Of a stretch of 64,000 bases of DNA, positions 7,604 to 14,680 are shown piece after piece. Each line of letters begins with the position of its first letter. Position 1 is the first letter of the stretch. Source of the stretch: Catenulispora acidiphila DSM 44928 (GTDB taxonomy: Bacteria; Actinomycetota; Actinomycetes; Streptomycetales; Catenulisporaceae). Both the position numbers and the translations under genes were made by a program. The DNA lies in the NCBI RefSeq assembly GCF_000024025.1, contig NC_013131.1, positions 7,854,229 to 7,918,228 of the forward strand, given 5' to 3'. The notes under the pieces are model-generated. The model did no database searches. It saw only the letters and a list, made by a program, of their open reading frames with translations, and was not told the origin of the DNA.

Positions 7604-7747
7604 CACAGCTCACATATACCAGAGTGCTGAGGAATGACCGTTTCGCCACGCGATCGGCCGGGACTAGTCATGCATACGCCCACTCGTCTCCCACCACCGC
7701 CCGTCAAGGAGTCGCGACGCTCCACAAGCTGATTGAGGTCTATAGAT

Positions 7748-7771
7748 CGGTGTGCGCCGCGTCACACACCG
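7748..7771. promoter_or_regulatory. inverted repeat in fasR upstream region
   Basis: CGGTGTG and CACACCG arms of 7 bp, 10 bases apart, lie in the 270-bp space between the divergent SAH-hydrolase-like gene and fasR. The position would suit an operator for either gene. This is pattern evidence only. Confidence 0.3.
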
Positions 7772-7872
7772 CCGCCGACAGAACAGCGCCGACATGCCCG
7801 TCCGCCCGCACCGGCGGCCGACTGTCGCGAATGTGGACACAGGCGTCCCATTCTGTGAGCGAGAATGAGGAG

Positions 7873-9096
7873 ATGACCACCGGACCGACTGACGACCTCA
7901 CCCCGGCCCAGCGGGCAGCCGCGGTCCGGCGCCTGGAGAAGGCGATCGGCTCGTTGGCCGGGGTCGCGATCCAGCGCATGGAAGAGAGGCTGGCCTGGTA
8001 CCGGGCCATGCCGCCGGACAACCGCTCCTGGATCGGGCTGGTCGTGCAGGCCGGTATCGCCGCCTTCGTGGAGTGGTTCCGCAACCCGCAGGACCGGACC
8101 GCGATCAGCGCGGACGTCTTCGGTACCGCCCCGCGCGAGCTGACCCGCTCGGTGACCCTGCGCCAGACCGTGGAGCTGGTCCGCACGACCATAGAAGTGG
8201 TCGAAGAGGGCATCGGCCAGATCGCCCAGGGCCCGGCCGAGCAGGCCGCGCTGCGCGAGGGCATGCTGCGCTACTCCCGCGAGATCGCCTTCGCCGCCGC
8301 CCAGGTCTACGCGCAGGCCGCCGAGCTGCGCGGTGCCTGGGACGCGCGGCTGGAGGCGCTGGTCGTCGACGAGCTGATGCGCGGGGACGTGCTGGACGAC
8401 ACCGTGCGCTCGCGCGCGGCGGCCCTGGGCTGGGACAGCGCCTCGGGCCTGGTGGTCGTGGTCGGCGCGACCCCGAAGCCGCTGGACAACCGGGACAACG
8501 TGCGCCAGCACACCGCGCTGGTCGCCGACGCCGTGCACCGCGCCGCGCGCCGGGCCCGGCTCACCGTGCTCACCGGCGTGCAGTCGGACCGGCTGGTGGT
8601 GATCATCGGCGGCGCCGAGGATCCGCTGACCGCGACCCGGGCGCTGGCCAACGAGTTCGGGCCGGGACCGCTGGTGATCGGACCGGTTGTCGAAGACCTC
8701 CTGTCGGCGGGCATTTCCGCCCAAGCCGCGCTCTCCGCGCTGCGCGCCGCCGGCGCCTGGCCGGACGCGCCGCGCCCGGTCCTGGCCGCCGAACTGCTGC
8801 CCGAACGCGCGCTGGCCGGTGACGAGGCCGCCAAGGCGCAACTGGTGAGCGAGGTCTACCGGCCGCTGGAGTCCGCGGGCGCGGCGTTGCTCGAAACCGT
8901 CTCGGCTTACCTGGAACAGGCAGCCTCTCTGGAATCAGCGGCCCGGATGCTGTTCGTCCACCCCAACACCGTGCGGTACCGGCTCAAAAGGGTGAGCGAC
9001 CTCACAGGGCTCAATCCCGCGCAACCGCGCGCGGCGTTCACCCTCCATATGGCGCTGGCCTTGGGAAGGTTGGCCGGACCCGGAACGGGTTTGTAG
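7873..9096 (+). CDS. fasR: FasR-type PucR-family regulator of fatty acid synthesis
   Basis: About 407 residues from ATG 7873; GTG 7855 is an alternative, and the exact start is uncertain because AGGAG abuts the ATG. The N-terminus (AIGSLAGVAIQRMEERLAWYRAMPPDNRSW) and the C-terminal PucR helix-turn-helix (ARMLFVHPNTVRYRLKRVSDLTG) match the regulator found directly before fabD in streptomycetes. There FasR activates the fabD-fabH-acpP-fabF operon. The middle part is the usual signal-input domain. It is co-oriented with fabD 80 bases downstream, as expected. Function is inferred from family and position; both are strong. Confidence 0.88.
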   Translation: MTTGPTDDLTPAQRAAAVRRLEKAIGSLAGVAIQRMEERLAWYRAMPPDNRSWIGLVVQAGIAAFVEWFRNPQDRTAISADVFGTAPRELTRSVTLRQTVELVRTTIEVVEEGIGQIAQGPAEQAALREGMLRYSREIAFAAAQVYAQAAELRGAWDARLEALVVDELMRGDVLDDTVRSRAAALGWDSASGLVVVVGATPKPLDNRDNVRQHTALVADAVHRAARRARLTVLTGVQSDRLVVIIGGAEDPLTATRALANEFGPGPLVIGPVVEDLLSAGISAQAALSALRAAGAWPDAPRPVLAAELLPERALAGDEAAKAQLVSEVYRPLESAGAALLETVSAYLEQAASLESAARMLFVHPNTVRYRLKRVSDLTGLNPAQPRAAFTLHMALALGRLAGPGTGL

Positions 9097-9176: not shown

Positions 9177-10370
9177 GTGCTAGTACTCGTCGCGCCGGGC
9201 CAGGGTGCCCAGTCCCCCGGATTCCTCACCCCGTGGCTCGAAGTCCCCGGGTTCGCCGACCGGCTGACCTGGTGGTCCGCCGTGTCCGGGCTGGACCTGG
9301 TGCACTACGGCACCGAAGCCGACGCCGACACCATCAAGGACACCGCGGTCGCGCAGCCGCTGCTGGTCGCCGCGGGCATCGCCGCGGCGCTGGCGCTGTT
9401 CCCGCACCCGGCCGACGCCTTCACGATGGTCGGCGCGGCCGGCGGGCACTCGGTCGGTGAGATCACCGCCGCCGCCGGCACCGGTGTGATCAGCGCCGAG
9501 GCCGCCATGGTCTTCGTCCGCGAGCGCGGCCGGCTGATGGCCCAGGCCGCCGCGGTCACCCCGACCGGCATGACCGCCGTCCTCGGCGGCGACCGCGACG
9601 AGGTGCTCGCCAAGATCGCCGAGCACAACCTGATCCCGGCCAACAACAACGGCGCCGGCCAGATCGTCGCCGCCGGCACGCTGGAGGACCTGGCGCGCTT
9701 CGGCGACGACGGTCCGTCCGGCGCGCGGCTGCGGGCGCTGAGCGTCGCCGGCGCCTTCCACACCCAGCACATGGGCTCGGCGGTGGAGCAGCTCTCCCGT
9801 CTGGCCAAGGGCATCACCACCCGCGACCCGCGCACCCGCCTGGTGTCCAACGCCGACGGCGCGGTCGTGCACGACGGCCGCGAGGTCCTGCGCCGCCTGG
9901 TCGCCCAGGTGTCGAATCCGGTCCGCTGGGACCTGTGCATGGATACTTTCGGCGAACTCGGGGTAACCGGCATTCTTGAGGTGCCGCCGGCAGGCACCCT
10001 GACGGGCCTTGCCAAGCGGGCCCTCAAGGGCGTGGAGACCTTCGCCCTGAAGACCCCGGAGGACCTGGACGCCGCCCGCGAGTTCGCCGCCAAGCACGCC
10101 GAACCCGCCGACGCCAACCCGCTGGACGCCGCCCCGACCTGGCGTCTGGTGATCGCTCCGCACGGGGGCACGGTACGCCGCGGCGCCGTGCAGGCCGGGG
10201 ACAAGCTCGAGCGCGACACCGCCGTGGCCACCGTGGTCGCGCGCGGCGACGAGCACGAGATCACGGTGCGGCACGAGGGCCAGGCCCTCGAGTGGCTCGT
10301 GGAAGACGGGGATCCGGTCGCGCCGGGGCAGCCGCTGCTGCGCGTCCACCCGACAGGCTCGTTCGACTAG
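9177..10370 (+). CDS. fabD: malonyl-CoA:ACP transacylase with extra C-terminal biotinyl/lipoyl-like domain
   Basis: 397 residues. It loads malonate onto ACP for type II fatty acid synthesis. Catalytic features: GQGAQ (8-12), nucleophile Ser92 in GGHSVGE, Arg117, and His195 in GAFHTQHM. Residues 1-308 cover the complete enzyme and end where the Streptomyces protein normally ends (LKTPEDLDAAREFAAKHAE). Residues about 322-391 are additional. They follow the biotinyl/lipoyl fold pattern: GGTVRRGAVQAGDKL, then a hairpin turn and VEDGDPVAPGQPLLRV. The attachment lysine is missing: the MKM position reads RGD. The GTG start is preceded by GAGAG. It heads the fab operon. The fusion looks deliberate, since the reading frame is continuous and codon use is unchanged. 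Confidence 0.93.
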   Translation: MLVLVAPGQGAQSPGFLTPWLEVPGFADRLTWWSAVSGLDLVHYGTEADADTIKDTAVAQPLLVAAGIAAALALFPHPADAFTMVGAAGGHSVGEITAAAGTGVISAEAAMVFVRERGRLMAQAAAVTPTGMTAVLGGDRDEVLAKIAEHNLIPANNNGAGQIVAAGTLEDLARFGDDGPSGARLRALSVAGAFHTQHMGSAVEQLSRLAKGITTRDPRTRLVSNADGAVVHDGREVLRRLVAQVSNPVRWDLCMDTFGELGVTGILEVPPAGTLTGLAKRALKGVETFALKTPEDLDAAREFAAKHAEPADANPLDAAPTWRLVIAPHGGTVRRGAVQAGDKLERDTAVATVVARGDEHEITVRHEGQALEWLVEDGDPVAPGQPLLRVHPTGSFD

Positions 10371-10424
10371 GGCTTGTCTTATGAACTCCGGCCGGCCCGA
10401 CAGTCGATAAAAGGGGATCCGATC

Positions 10425-11435
10425 ATGGCAACCATCAGGGAGAAGCAGGGCGCGGCGCACACCCGCATCATGGGTGTCGGCGGCTACGTGCCCAGCCGCG
10501 TCGTCGACAACGAAGAGGTCTGCACCTGGATCGACTCCTCCGACGAGTGGATCCGGACGCGCTCGGGCATCTCCGAGCGCCGCTGGGCCACGCCGGAGGA
10601 GACGGTCCTGGAGATGGCGGTCGAGGCCTCCGGCAAGGCGCTGGCATCGGCCGGGATCGCCGGGGACCAGATCGGCGCGATCATCGTCGCCACGGTCTCG
10701 CACTTCCACCAGACCCCCGCGCTGGCCTGCCTGGTCGCCGACCGGCTCGGTACCAACGGCGCGGCCTTCGACATCTCCGCCGGCTGCGCGGGCTTCTGCT
10801 ACGGCGTGGCTCAGGCCTCGGACATGGTCAAGGCCGGCACCGCCGAGTACGTCCTGGTGATCGGCGTGGAGCGGCTCAGCGACCTGACCGACATCCACGA
10901 CCGCGGCACCGCCTTCATCTTCGGCGACGGCGCCGGCGCGGTGGTGATAGGCCCGTCCGACACCCCCGGCATCGGCCCGGTGGTGTGGGGCTCCGAGGGC
11001 GACAAGTACGGCACCATCACGCAGACCTACCCCTGGAACGAGGTTCCCGAGGAAGGCGAGGACGGCGCGGAGGTCCGCGGTCCGTTCCTGCAGATGGAGG
11101 GCCAGGCGGTCTTCCGCTGGGCCTCCTACCAGATGGCCGAGGTCTCGCTGAAGGCGCTGGCCGAGGCCGGCATCACCGCCGGCGACCTGGACGCCTTCAT
11201 CCCGCACCAGGCCAACATGCGCATCACCGACCGCCTGGTGAAGGTCCTGGACCTGCCCGAGCACGTGCCGGTCGCGCGGACCATCTCCGAGTTCGGAAAC
11301 AACTCCGCGGCCACCATCCCGCTGGCCATGGACCGCATGCTCTCCGACGGCACCGCGCCGCACGGCGGCCTGGCCCTGCTCATCGGGTTCGGGGCGGGTC
11401 TGGTCTACGCGGCGCAGGTCGTTAGTCTCCCCTAG
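10425..11435 (+). CDS. fabH: beta-ketoacyl-ACP synthase III
   Basis: 336 residues from the ATG at 10425, chosen over an in-frame start at 10374 because AAGGGGA lies 7-8 bases upstream. FabH condenses an acyl-CoA primer with malonyl-ACP, which starts fatty acid synthesis; in actinobacteria it prefers branched primers. The Cys-His-Asn triad is visible: Cys121 in ISAGCAGFCYG, His in FIPHQANMRI near 261, and Asn in FGNNSAATIP near 292. Length is normal. It lies 54 bases after fabD in the same operon. Confidence 0.95.
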   Translation: MATIREKQGAAHTRIMGVGGYVPSRVVDNEEVCTWIDSSDEWIRTRSGISERRWATPEETVLEMAVEASGKALASAGIAGDQIGAIIVATVSHFHQTPALACLVADRLGTNGAAFDISAGCAGFCYGVAQASDMVKAGTAEYVLVIGVERLSDLTDIHDRGTAFIFGDGAGAVVIGPSDTPGIGPVVWGSEGDKYGTITQTYPWNEVPEEGEDGAEVRGPFLQMEGQAVFRWASYQMAEVSLKALAEAGITAGDLDAFIPHQANMRITDRLVKVLDLPEHVPVARTISEFGNNSAATIPLAMDRMLSDGTAPHGGLALLIGFGAGLVYAAQVVSLP

Positions 11436-11499: not shown

Positions 11500-11748
11500 A
11501 TGGCTCTGACCCAGGAAGAAATCCTCGCCGACCTCGCTGAGATCGTCGAAGAGGTCGCGGGCGTCGACGCCGCCGACGTGCAGATGGACAAGTCGTTCAC
11601 CGGCGACCTGGACGTCGACTCGCTGACCATGGTCGAGGTCGTCGTGGCCGCCGAGGAGAAGTTCTCCGTGAAGATCCCGGACGACGCCGTCAAGGACCTG
11701 TCCACGGTCGGCGACGCGGTCGGCTACATCCAGAAGAACCAGGCCTGA
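11500..11748 (+). CDS. acpP: acyl carrier protein
   Basis: 82 residues, preceded by GAAGGAG with 8-9 bases' spacing. The phosphopantetheine attachment site is Ser41 in the DSL motif (GDLDVDSLTMVEVV). The four-helix acidic composition and length are typical of the housekeeping fatty-acid ACP. It sits between fabH and fabF, the standard order. Confidence 0.96.
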   Translation: MALTQEEILADLAEIVEEVAGVDAADVQMDKSFTGDLDVDSLTMVEVVVAAEEKFSVKIPDDAVKDLSTVGDAVGYIQKNQA

Positions 11749-11910: not shown

Positions 11911-13155
11911 GTGACTGCTCGCAAGTCTGTCGTCGTCACCGGGGTCGGTGCGACCACGCCTCTCGGCGGGGACGCCGCCTCGTTCTGGGACGGGTTGCTG
12001 GCCGGACGCTCCGGAGTGCGCAACCTGACTGAAGAGTGGGCCGAGCAGCTGCCAGTGCGCTTCGCCGCCCGGGTCGCCGTCGAGCCCTCGGCGCACCTGA
12101 AGCCGGTGGAGATCCGCCGCCTGGACCGCTCGGCGCAGTTCGCGCTGATCGCGGCCCGCGAGGCCTGGAAGGACGCCGGGTTCGAGGGCAAGTCCGCCGA
12201 GCCCAACCGGCTGGGCGTGATGGTCGGCTCCGGCATCGGCGGGGTCACCACCTTGCTGAGCGCCTACGACGACCTGCTCGCCAAGGGCCCGCGCTCGGTC
12301 GGCCCGCGCACGGTCCCGATGCTCATGCCGAACTCCCCGGCGGCCTACGTCGGCCTGGAGTTCGACGCCCGCGCCGGCGTGCACGCGCCGGTCTCGGCCT
12401 GCGCCACCGGCGCCGAGGCGGTCGGCCACGCCATCGAGATGATCCGCTCCGGCCGCGCCGACGTGGTGCTGGCCGGCGGCACCGAGGCCGCCATCCACCC
12501 GCTGCCGATCGCCGCCTTCGCCAACATGATGGCGATGTCCAAGCGCAACGACGACCCGCAGCACGCCTCCCGGCCCTTCGACGTCGGCCGCGACGGCTTC
12601 GTGCTCGGCGAGGGCGCCGGCATCCTGGTCCTGGAGTCGGCCGAGCACGCCGCCGCGCGCGGCGCCCGGGTCTACGCCGAGGCCGCCGGCGTCGGCTTCT
12701 CCGCGGACTCCCACGACATCGCCCAGCCCGAGCCGGACGGCCGCGGCGTCGCCGAGGCGCTGGCCTTCGCGCTGGAGGACGCCGACCTGACCCCCGGCGA
12801 CGTCCGGCACCTGAACGCGCACGCCACCAGCACCCCGCGCGGCGACCTCGCCGAGATCATGGCCTTCCGGAAGATCCTGGGCTCGGCCGCCGAGGACGTC
12901 GCGGTCTCGGCCACCAAGTCGATGCACGGCCACCTGCTCGGCGGCACCGGCGCGATCGAGTCGGTGGCGACCGTCCTGGCCCTGCACCACCGCCAGGCGC
13001 CGCCGACGATCAACATCGAAGAGCTGGACCCCGAGGTCACCCTGGACATCGTCCGCGACAAGCCGCGGGCCCTGCCCGAGGGCCAGATCGCGGCGCTGAA
13101 CGACTCCTTCGGGTTCGGCGGGCACAACGTGGTCGTGGCCTTCAAGTCGGTCTGA
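11911..13155 (+). CDS. fabF: beta-ketoacyl-ACP synthase II
   Basis: 414 residues from GTG 11911, with AAGGTAAG upstream. It performs the elongating condensation of acyl-ACP with malonyl-ACP. Triad: Cys164 in VSACATGAEAVG, His in LNAHATSTPRGD near 306, and His in KSMHGHLLGGTGAIES near 341. The C-terminal NDSFGFGGHNVVVAF is standard. Length and order are as in other actinobacteria. The 160-bp gap before it could hold a second promoter. Confidence 0.95.
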   Translation: MTARKSVVVTGVGATTPLGGDAASFWDGLLAGRSGVRNLTEEWAEQLPVRFAARVAVEPSAHLKPVEIRRLDRSAQFALIAAREAWKDAGFEGKSAEPNRLGVMVGSGIGGVTTLLSAYDDLLAKGPRSVGPRTVPMLMPNSPAAYVGLEFDARAGVHAPVSACATGAEAVGHAIEMIRSGRADVVLAGGTEAAIHPLPIAAFANMMAMSKRNDDPQHASRPFDVGRDGFVLGEGAGILVLESAEHAAARGARVYAEAAGVGFSADSHDIAQPEPDGRGVAEALAFALEDADLTPGDVRHLNAHATSTPRGDLAEIMAFRKILGSAAEDVAVSATKSMHGHLLGGTGAIESVATVLALHHRQAPPTINIEELDPEVTLDIVRDKPRALPEGQIAALNDSFGFGGHNVVVAFKSV

Positions 13156-13219: not shown

Positions 13220-14680
13220 ATGACCGTCACCGACACCCAGGCCGCGCCGGCGATTCCGGCGCCGGCCGCCAAACCCTCCCGCGACGACGACCCCCGCAAC
13301 CCGGCCAAGCGCCTGGAGCGGCTCTTCGACGCCGGCACCACGGAGCTGCTGACCCCGGTCGACGACTCCGGCTTCCTGGCCGCCGCCGGCCTGATCGACG
13401 GTGTCCGCACTGTCGCCTACGCCTCGGACGCGACCATCCAGGCCGGCGCCATGGGCCGGACCGGCTGCCAGGTCATCCTGGCCGCCTACGAGCACGCCTT
13501 GGCCGGCGGCCACCCGATCGTCGCGCTCTTCCACTCCTCCGGCGCCCGCCTGCAGGAAGGCGTGGCCTCGCTGCACGCGGTGGGCCAGGTCTTCGCGGCC
13601 ATGACCCGCGCCAGCGGCAAGATCCCGCAGATCTCGGTGGTCCTCGGCCCGGCGGCCGGCGGCGCGGCCTACGGCCCGGCGCTGACCGACATCGTGATCC
13701 TGGGCCCGGCCGGCCGCATCTTCGTCACCGGCCCGGACGTGGTCCGCTCGGTCACCGGCGAGGACGTGGACGCCCTGCGCCTGGGCGGCCCGGAGCCGCA
13801 CGGCCGGCGCTCGGGCGTGGTGCACGTGGTCGCCGACACCGACGACGCGGCGTACTCCAGCGCCCGCAAGCTCGCCGCGCTGCTGGGCGACCAGGGCACG
13901 CTGGACGCGGCCTCGGTCGAGGACCGCGACCTGGCGCACCTGCTCCCGGCCTCCCCCAAGCGCGCCTACGACGTCCACCCGCTGGTGAACGCGGTCTTCG
14001 ACAAGGCCGGCGTGGAGCTGCACACCAAGTGGGCGCCGAACGTGGTGACGGCGCTGGGCCGCTTCGGCGGACGCACCGTCGGCGTCATCGCCAACAACCC
14101 GCTGCGCCTGGGCGGCTGCCTGGACTCCGCGGCGGCGGAGAAGGCGGCACGCTTCGTCCGCATGTGCGACGCCTTCGGGGTCCCGCTGATCGTCCTGGTG
14201 GACGTCCCCGGCTACCTCCCCGGCGTCGGCCAGGAGTGGGACGGCGTGGTCCGCCGCGGCGCGAAGCTCCTGCACGCCTTCGCAGAGTGCGTGATCCCGC
14301 GCGTCACCCTGGTGACCCGCAAGACCTACGGCGGCGCCTACATCGCGATGAACTCCCGCGCCCTCGGCGCCACGAAGGTCTTCGCCTGGCCGACCGCCGA
14401 AGTCGCGGTCATGGGCTCGGTCGCGGCGGTCCGCATCATCCACCGCCGCAAACTCGCCGACGTCTCAGACGACATCCGCGCCCAGATGGAGCAGGAACTC
14501 GCCGCCGAGCACGAGAAGGTCTCCGGCGGCGTCGACCGCGCCATCGAGATCGGCGTGGTGGACCAGGTCGTGGAGCCCGGCGCTTCCCGCAGCGCGATCG
14601 CGGCGGCCATCGCCGCGGCGCCCGGCGGACTCGGCGGAGACGCACTGGTGCGCGGACAGCACGGGAACATCCCGCTGTAG
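13220..14680 (+). CDS. accD: acyl-CoA carboxylase carboxyltransferase subunit
   Basis: 486 residues. It belongs to the fused alpha/beta carboxyltransferase family (AccD/PccB type), which transfers carboxyl from biotin to acetyl- or propionyl-CoA. Visible landmarks are FHSSGARLQEGVASL and VLGPAAGGAAYGPALTD (N-terminal crotonase fold, CoA binding), then ANNPLRLGGCLDSAAAEKAARF, VDVPGYLPGVGQEWDGV and TYGGAYIAMNSRALGA in the C-terminal half. It is slightly shorter than the usual 510-540 residues, mostly at the ends. Its place directly after fabF suggests that it supplies malonyl-CoA for the upstream enzymes. The biotin carboxylase/carrier subunit is not in this window. Confidence 0.88.
   Translation: MTVTDTQAAPAIPAPAAKPSRDDDPRNPAKRLERLFDAGTTELLTPVDDSGFLAAAGLIDGVRTVAYASDATIQAGAMGRTGCQVILAAYEHALAGGHPIVALFHSSGARLQEGVASLHAVGQVFAAMTRASGKIPQISVVLGPAAGGAAYGPALTDIVILGPAGRIFVTGPDVVRSVTGEDVDALRLGGPEPHGRRSGVVHVVADTDDAAYSSARKLAALLGDQGTLDAASVEDRDLAHLLPASPKRAYDVHPLVNAVFDKAGVELHTKWAPNVVTALGRFGGRTVGVIANNPLRLGGCLDSAAAEKAARFVRMCDAFGVPLIVLVDVPGYLPGVGQEWDGVVRRGAKLLHAFAECVIPRVTLVTRKTYGGAYIAMNSRALGATKVFAWPTAEVAVMGSVAAVRIIHRRKLADVSDDIRAQMEQELAAEHEKVSGGVDRAIEIGVVDQVVEPGASRSAIAAAIAAAPGGLGGDALVRGQHGNIPL

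Follow-up and report, generated by a model that had tools for sequence, protein, structure and literature searches.

A pseudo-biotinyl domain at the C-terminus of FabD: a widespread domain architecture with a probable docking role

The malonyl-CoA:ACP transacylase FabD of Catenulispora acidiphila continues past its catalytic core into a tail of biotinyl type that lacks the attachment lysine. The combination is a real, widespread and new domain architecture assembled from known families, for which we infer a function: the tail probably acts as a protein-protein docking module. The gene and its neighbors lie in a window of 64,000 nucleotides (the whole stretch of DNA that was analysed) and are listed here with the sequence elements discussed below; A4 and A5 denote alignments of named full-length loci (65 and 56 out of 77, respectively), each together with the window.

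7624..9096, + strand: upstream regulator-like open reading frame, which usually adjoins fabD in relatives
9177..10370, + strand: fabD, malonyl-CoA:ACP transacylase with a C-terminal biotinyl-like domain (open frame, 397 residues)
9177..10100, + strand: malonyltransferase core, residues 1-308 (Foldseek match to 1nm2; PF00698)
9444..9461, + strand: GHSVGE at residues 90-95, the nucleophile motif, which does not vary in A4
10101..10139, + strand: linker, residues 309-321, of which 314-320 are predicted to be unordered (AlphaFold2)
10140..10352, + strand: predicted pseudo-biotinyl domain, residues 322-392, flattened beta-barrel (PF00364, AlphaFold2, Foldseek, VIA-align)
10242..10250, + strand: hairpin tip RGD, residues 356-358, M-K-M in carriers, with Gly357 at the lysine position (alignments)
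10290..10307, + strand: conserved EWLVED, residues 372-377, with E372, W373 and L374 invariant in A4
10323..10352, + strand: conserved C-terminal strand PGQPLLRVHP, residues 383-392
10425..11435, + strand: fabH, beta-ketoacyl-ACP synthase III (ATG at 10425 chosen within the open frame 10374-11435)
11500..11748, + strand: acyl carrier protein (ACP) gene
11911..13155, + strand: fabF, beta-ketoacyl-ACP synthase II
13220..14680, + strand: carboxyltransferase (PF01039) of acyl-CoA carboxylase type, here called the operon-type AccD (the only NCBIfam match, mmdA, is below cut-off)

The fabD gene is a single open frame with a GTG start. Its core matches PF00698 (1.1e-17), has the FabD fold with the GHSxG nucleophile motif intact as GHSVGE, and finds its closest solved structure in 1nm2, the Streptomyces coelicolor enzyme (Foldseek; 63% of 308 aligned columns are identical, with a TM on target of 0.97). 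The core spans residues 1-308, and its end falls where the original prediction had placed it. Because the NCBIfam models for fabD (equivalog TIGR00128, 147.9 bits, cut-off 260.9) and mdcH (TIGR03131, 171.4 bits, cut-off 297.9) both score below their cut-offs, the name FabD rests on the fold, the close homologue, and the operon; by all signs the protein is a working malonyltransferase, as predicted from these features. MdcH, the epsilon subunit of malonate decarboxylase, is a related malonyltransferase, as the TIGR03131 score reflects, but the C. acidiphila protein stays under that cut-off and is located in a fab operon. The malonyl-CoA:ACP transacylases of S. coelicolor (1nm2) and Mycobacterium tuberculosis (2qc3; 50% identity) share the core fold, but their alignments end at profile positions 309 and 301, without a tail; likewise, a search of the PDB with the full-length FabD profile gave 38 sequences, and no alignment among them goes past position 309.

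Beyond the core, the last 98 residues on their own match the Biotin_lipoyl family PF00364 with 25.1 bits (1.6e-5; cut-off 22.1); the tail scores 23.4 bits in the genome-wide search, and the whole protein, at 21.0, falls just short of the cut-off. The tail sequence also matches the biotin carboxyl carrier protein (BCCP) of P. horikoshii with an E value of 5e-4. AlphaFold2, run on the full-length protein with the window and 65 named-locus sequences as input, gives a mean pLDDT of 92 and a pTM of 0.78, with core and barrel both confident; the barrel, at about 322-392, has six listed strands with block means of 82-93, while residues 314-320 of the linker stay under 50. Folded alone with 57 sequences, the tail again yields a confident barrel. 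This model matches 5gua with a TM of 0.90 on target (Foldseek) and 1bdo with a Z score of 13.3 and an rmsd of 1.8 over 73 residues at 26% identity (VIA-align). The biotinyl domains of BCCPs and acyl-CoA carboxylases (1bdo, 2d5d, 5gua) thus have the predicted flattened barrel in common with it, at Z scores of 12.9-13.3 and 26-31% identity; they are either free or fused to biotin carboxylase, whereas the tail is fused to FabD, and their attachment lysine is replaced in the tail, by Gly in C. acidiphila and usually by Arg. The biotinyl-type fold claimed earlier from the sequence is the one that AlphaFold2 predicts and that Foldseek and VIA-align match to biotinyl domains; a predicted structure without the flattened barrel, which would have refuted the claim, is not what the models show. 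A chance resemblance to biotinyl domains is ruled out by the predicted fold together with the conservation of the tail.

The fusion occurs across the class. Counting as tail-bearing those genomes that match the tail profile with an E value of 1.9e-11 or better, and leaving out one with a 709-residue frame (G384, 2.7e-12), the tail is found in 123 of 394 class genomes, under 31 family codes; at 1e-6, the profile is matched in 195 of the 394. Among 60 relatives, families f1 and f3 have it in 15 of 15 genomes, and in family f2, presumably Streptomyces-like, FabD ends at 302-322 residues in all 15 loci translated (of 45 f2 genomes). Of 296 named loci found, the best 80 include 78 with core and tail fused in one frame, and in the remaining two (L202, L244) the tail frame begins at the start of a contig. 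The nearest named relatives are Catenulispora; these best 80 further include Actinospica, Actinocrinis, Embleya, Yinghuangia, Streptantibioticus, Jiangella, Phytoactinopolyspora, Kribbella, Nocardioides, Janibacter, Knoellia, and Nanopelagicales. Five loci among them (L199, L203, L207, L223, L251) are labeled Streptomyces sp. and encode a FabD with a tail, so that the genus name is no marker of its absence; the FabD of S. coelicolor, judged from its structure entry, has none. In a draw of 346 genomes from the phylum, some of them of the class, tail-type matches occur only in three (G000, G179, G149), all class members; the other listed matches have E values of 4e-13 or weaker, lie mostly in frames of 460-920 residues with some in shorter ones, and are not counted here as tail-type. 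As a side observation, 8 of 148 class genomes (G068, G084, G087, G135, G157, G167, G176, G203) give no match to the FabD core at 1e-30.

No free-standing tail was found among the copies read: the single short frame checked in mid-contig (G251) is interrupted by N, and another (G363) is the fragment of a fused FabD at a contig start. Apart from the copies read, the short tail frames in G114, G081, G277 and G328 lie, by their coordinates, at contig starts. An error of assembly or annotation is ruled out by the 15 of 15 genomes of f1 and f3 and the 78 fused loci; the original prediction had named an extension missing from homologues across the group as the finding that would speak against it, but the homologues do have the extension, and the fusion is class-wide rather than local. 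Among the matches listed from the open-access literature (a body that leaves most subscription papers and all of bioRxiv outside), none describes a FabD with a biotinyl-like domain, and the available excerpts of PMC10863985 hold nothing on a FabD-biotinyl fusion.

The M-K-M of carriers aligns with R356-G357-D358, and Gly357 is thus the residue in the lysine position. Over 131 tails, a set that counts some genomes twice (L091/L200), this position is Arg in 115, Ser in 6, Gly in 5, Gln in 3, His in 1, Thr in 1, and Lys in none; the residue following it is Asp or Glu in 120. The absence of the attachment lysine, claimed earlier for this protein, therefore holds for the entire set. The claim that the site reads RGD is correct for the window, but as Arg is the usual residue, RGD is a Catenulispora variant; three loci of the same genus group (L008-L010) have RRD, and the RGD tip looks, from the sequences, as if it derives from an older x-Arg-Asp/Glu tip. 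Elsewhere in the genome, the lysine is retained in 16 of 16 PF00364 attachment domains, in the context MKM, MKL, TAK, TDK or TSK; two more PF00364 matches without it (L078, just above the cut-off, and L079, below it) are partial and look like efflux adaptors. We infer that the tail no longer carries a cofactor. Its constant positions, taken from several conservation lists of which the one over the 131 tails stops short of the last columns, are W322-R323, G331, E372-W373-L374, the GDPVxPGQP turn, and R389-x-H391-P392; the hairpin is more variable. Separately, the first turn contains a lysine (APxKG) in 47 of the 57 rows of A5; the window reads APHGG there (10155-10169).

A tree was made for 101 loci picked by hand (93 of the 140 FabD genomes, seven further tail-bearing genomes, and the window). 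Along it, the state of the tail changes at least 13 times, a count that does not separate gains from losses; because of the spread of the tail over this tree, an ancestral tail, gained early and lost repeatedly, looks like the simplest reading. In family f16 the tails are degenerate, shortened (L179), or gone. The shortened one (G162:C31) has lost the central part of the barrel and with it the pseudo-attachment hairpin, and its relatives L180 and L181 are without a tail, giving a snapshot of loss. Within Catenulispora the tail is under purifying selection, as five comparisons with the window show, in which its omega is 0.10-0.25 and that of the core 0.11-0.22; outside the genus, in two more distant family members, it is less constrained than the core (0.50-0.65 vs 0.37-0.40).

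A docking domain is the best reading of the tail because it combines the predicted fold of a BCCP without its lysine, a flexible tether, and a barrel more conserved than its tip. Visits to both biotin carboxylase and carboxyltransferase are what the BCCP fold evolved for. By analogy, acetyl-CoA carboxylase, through either the operon-type AccD or a biotin carboxylase or BCCP subunit, would be the natural partner, for this reason and for the precedent of the plant BADC proteins. According to the excerpted text of PMC11926652, the BADCs are 25-30% identical to BCCP, have no biotinylation motif, and bind biotin carboxylase and BCCP subunits, acting as a glue or, in the view of other authors, as inhibitors. 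The bacterial tail resembles them, as far as that excerpt describes them, in being a BCCP-like domain without the motif in fatty-acid synthesis, but they are separate plastid proteins, while the tail is part of FabD. Mechanistically, a non-biotinylated copy of the BCCP domain on a flexible tether would bring FabD to the carboxylase, where fresh malonyl-CoA could be passed to ACP on the spot; alternatively, FabD might tune the assembly of the carboxylase, as the BADCs are thought to do. We propose the carboxylase as partner only tentatively, because a role in cis or a contact with ACP fits the covariation of rates described below at least equally well. Bolder, and doubtful as it stands, is the notion of an ancient class-wide relay, in which the dead BCCP domain would anchor FabD to acetyl-CoA carboxylase, the Arg-Asp tip would take the place of the biotinyl-lysine in the cleft, and several lineages in which the paired AccD was lost, f2 among them, would have dropped the domain.

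As foreseen, a carboxyltransferase gene is part of the operon, at 13220..14680 on the same strand, and one follows fabD in 64 of the 67 named loci whose sequence extends far enough (the other 13 of the best 80 are too short), the exceptions being L195, L200, and L196, which has a fragment only. In the set of 101 loci, the carboxyltransferase is present in 40 tail-bearing loci, absent in 5 (one, L184, has a fragment), and beyond the available sequence in 7; for tail-less loci, the numbers are 26, 20 and 3. Genome-wide, at a threshold of 1e-125, the operon-type AccD is found in 111 of 123 tail-bearing genomes vs 125 of 271 tail-less ones, and of the 12 tail-bearing genomes without it, 6 are under 90% complete. 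Where tail-less genomes have no AccD in the fetched operon, they have distant paralogues only (23 of 23, best 42-47% identity). The operon-type AccD is itself a distinct orthologue; it occurs in 236 of the 394 class genomes and in none of the 20 f2 genomes listed.

The Fisher p value of this co-occurrence (3e-18) ignores kinship and is therefore not a test. With kinship corrected for, AccD differs the same way as the tail in 4.6 of 11 tail-differing pairs, the opposite way in 0.5, and is equal in 5.9 (median p 0.22); in 12 AccD-differing pairs the corresponding values are 4.8, 0.5 and 6.7 (median p 0.125). Individual genomes depart from the pattern as well: G077, G240, G187 and G013 have the tail, with no operon-type AccD found anywhere in the genome, G010 has only a fragment of it, and G149, also tail-bearing, has an AccD copy at 57% elsewhere in the genome. 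The fab operon itself is without a carboxyltransferase in G013 and G077. Families f6, f20 and f27, in the loci fetched, have kept AccD and have no tail.

Evolutionary rates were compared over 67 loci, to which the 98 that have every gene had been thinned according to FabD distance, using simple corrected distances and p values from label permutation, which remove kinship only in part. The rate of the tail tracks that of the FabD core most (partial r 0.50, p 0.0005), and less so those of the PucR-like upstream gene (0.17, p 0.014) and ACP (0.12, p 0.03); no clear covariation is seen with AccD (-0.05, p 0.78), FabF (0.07, p 0.13) or FabH (-0.10, p 0.94). The upstream gene is presumably of PucR type; the part of it at 7849-9093 has no NCBIfam match at 1e-15. 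Taken together, the four tests of a link between tail and AccD give a mixed outcome. The earlier idea that FabD docks to the carboxylase thus keeps the co-occurrence in its favor, but the kinship-corrected pairs are not significant, the covariation is not specific to AccD, and some genomes have the tail and no AccD.

The covariation with the core is what a role in cis would lead one to expect, with the tail stabilizing FabD, shaping its oligomeric state, or gating its active site, and touching no carboxylase; that the copies read include no free-standing tail, the one mid-contig candidate, in G251, being split by N, and that 78 of the best 80 loci are fused, also fits. However, fusion by itself could explain a common rate, there are orthologues without a tail whose cores are up to 68% identical, and the linker is predicted to be unordered, with a pTM of only 0.78 although both domains are confident, which suggests that the packing is not fixed. 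We therefore regard a role in cis as rather unlikely. Less likely still is that the tail gives ACP, FabH or FabF an accessory docking site in the type II synthase, although their genes share the operon in nearly all tail-bearing loci that are long enough and the rate of the tail covaries weakly with that of ACP: with the linker included, the net charge of the tails averages -4.8 over the 57 rows of A5, so they are acidic, as is ACP itself, and FabH and FabF show no clear covariation.

Little probability goes to a regulatory handle, in which the tail would offer a stand-in BCCP surface to a signal protein such as PII; the excerpts of PMC5080355 report PII on BCCP in E. coli, slowing acetyl-CoA carboxylase, and binding to cyanobacterial BCCP as well. 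That the tail is a decaying relic without function, as the many changes of state on the tree and the degenerate tails of f16 could be taken to mean, is very improbable in view of purifying selection comparable to that on the core within the genus and of near-invariant residues across many families. A modified carrier domain, with its group on another residue, deserves hardly any credence: the first-turn lysine would be the candidate, but it is missing from the window, where K343 is the sole lysine of the barrel, and lysine exceeds a fifth of the rows in no other column of A5.

The tail bears on how fatty-acid synthesis is pictured in these bacteria. Textbooks present FabD as an enzyme that stands alone, and among the matches listed, the solved FabDs of S. 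coelicolor and M. tuberculosis have no tail. If FabD bears a pseudo-BCCP in about a third of the class (the 123 of 394 genomes), the standard picture of early fatty-acid synthesis misses a part, and a physical coupling of carboxylase and malonyl transfer would be directly testable through the deletion of a single domain.
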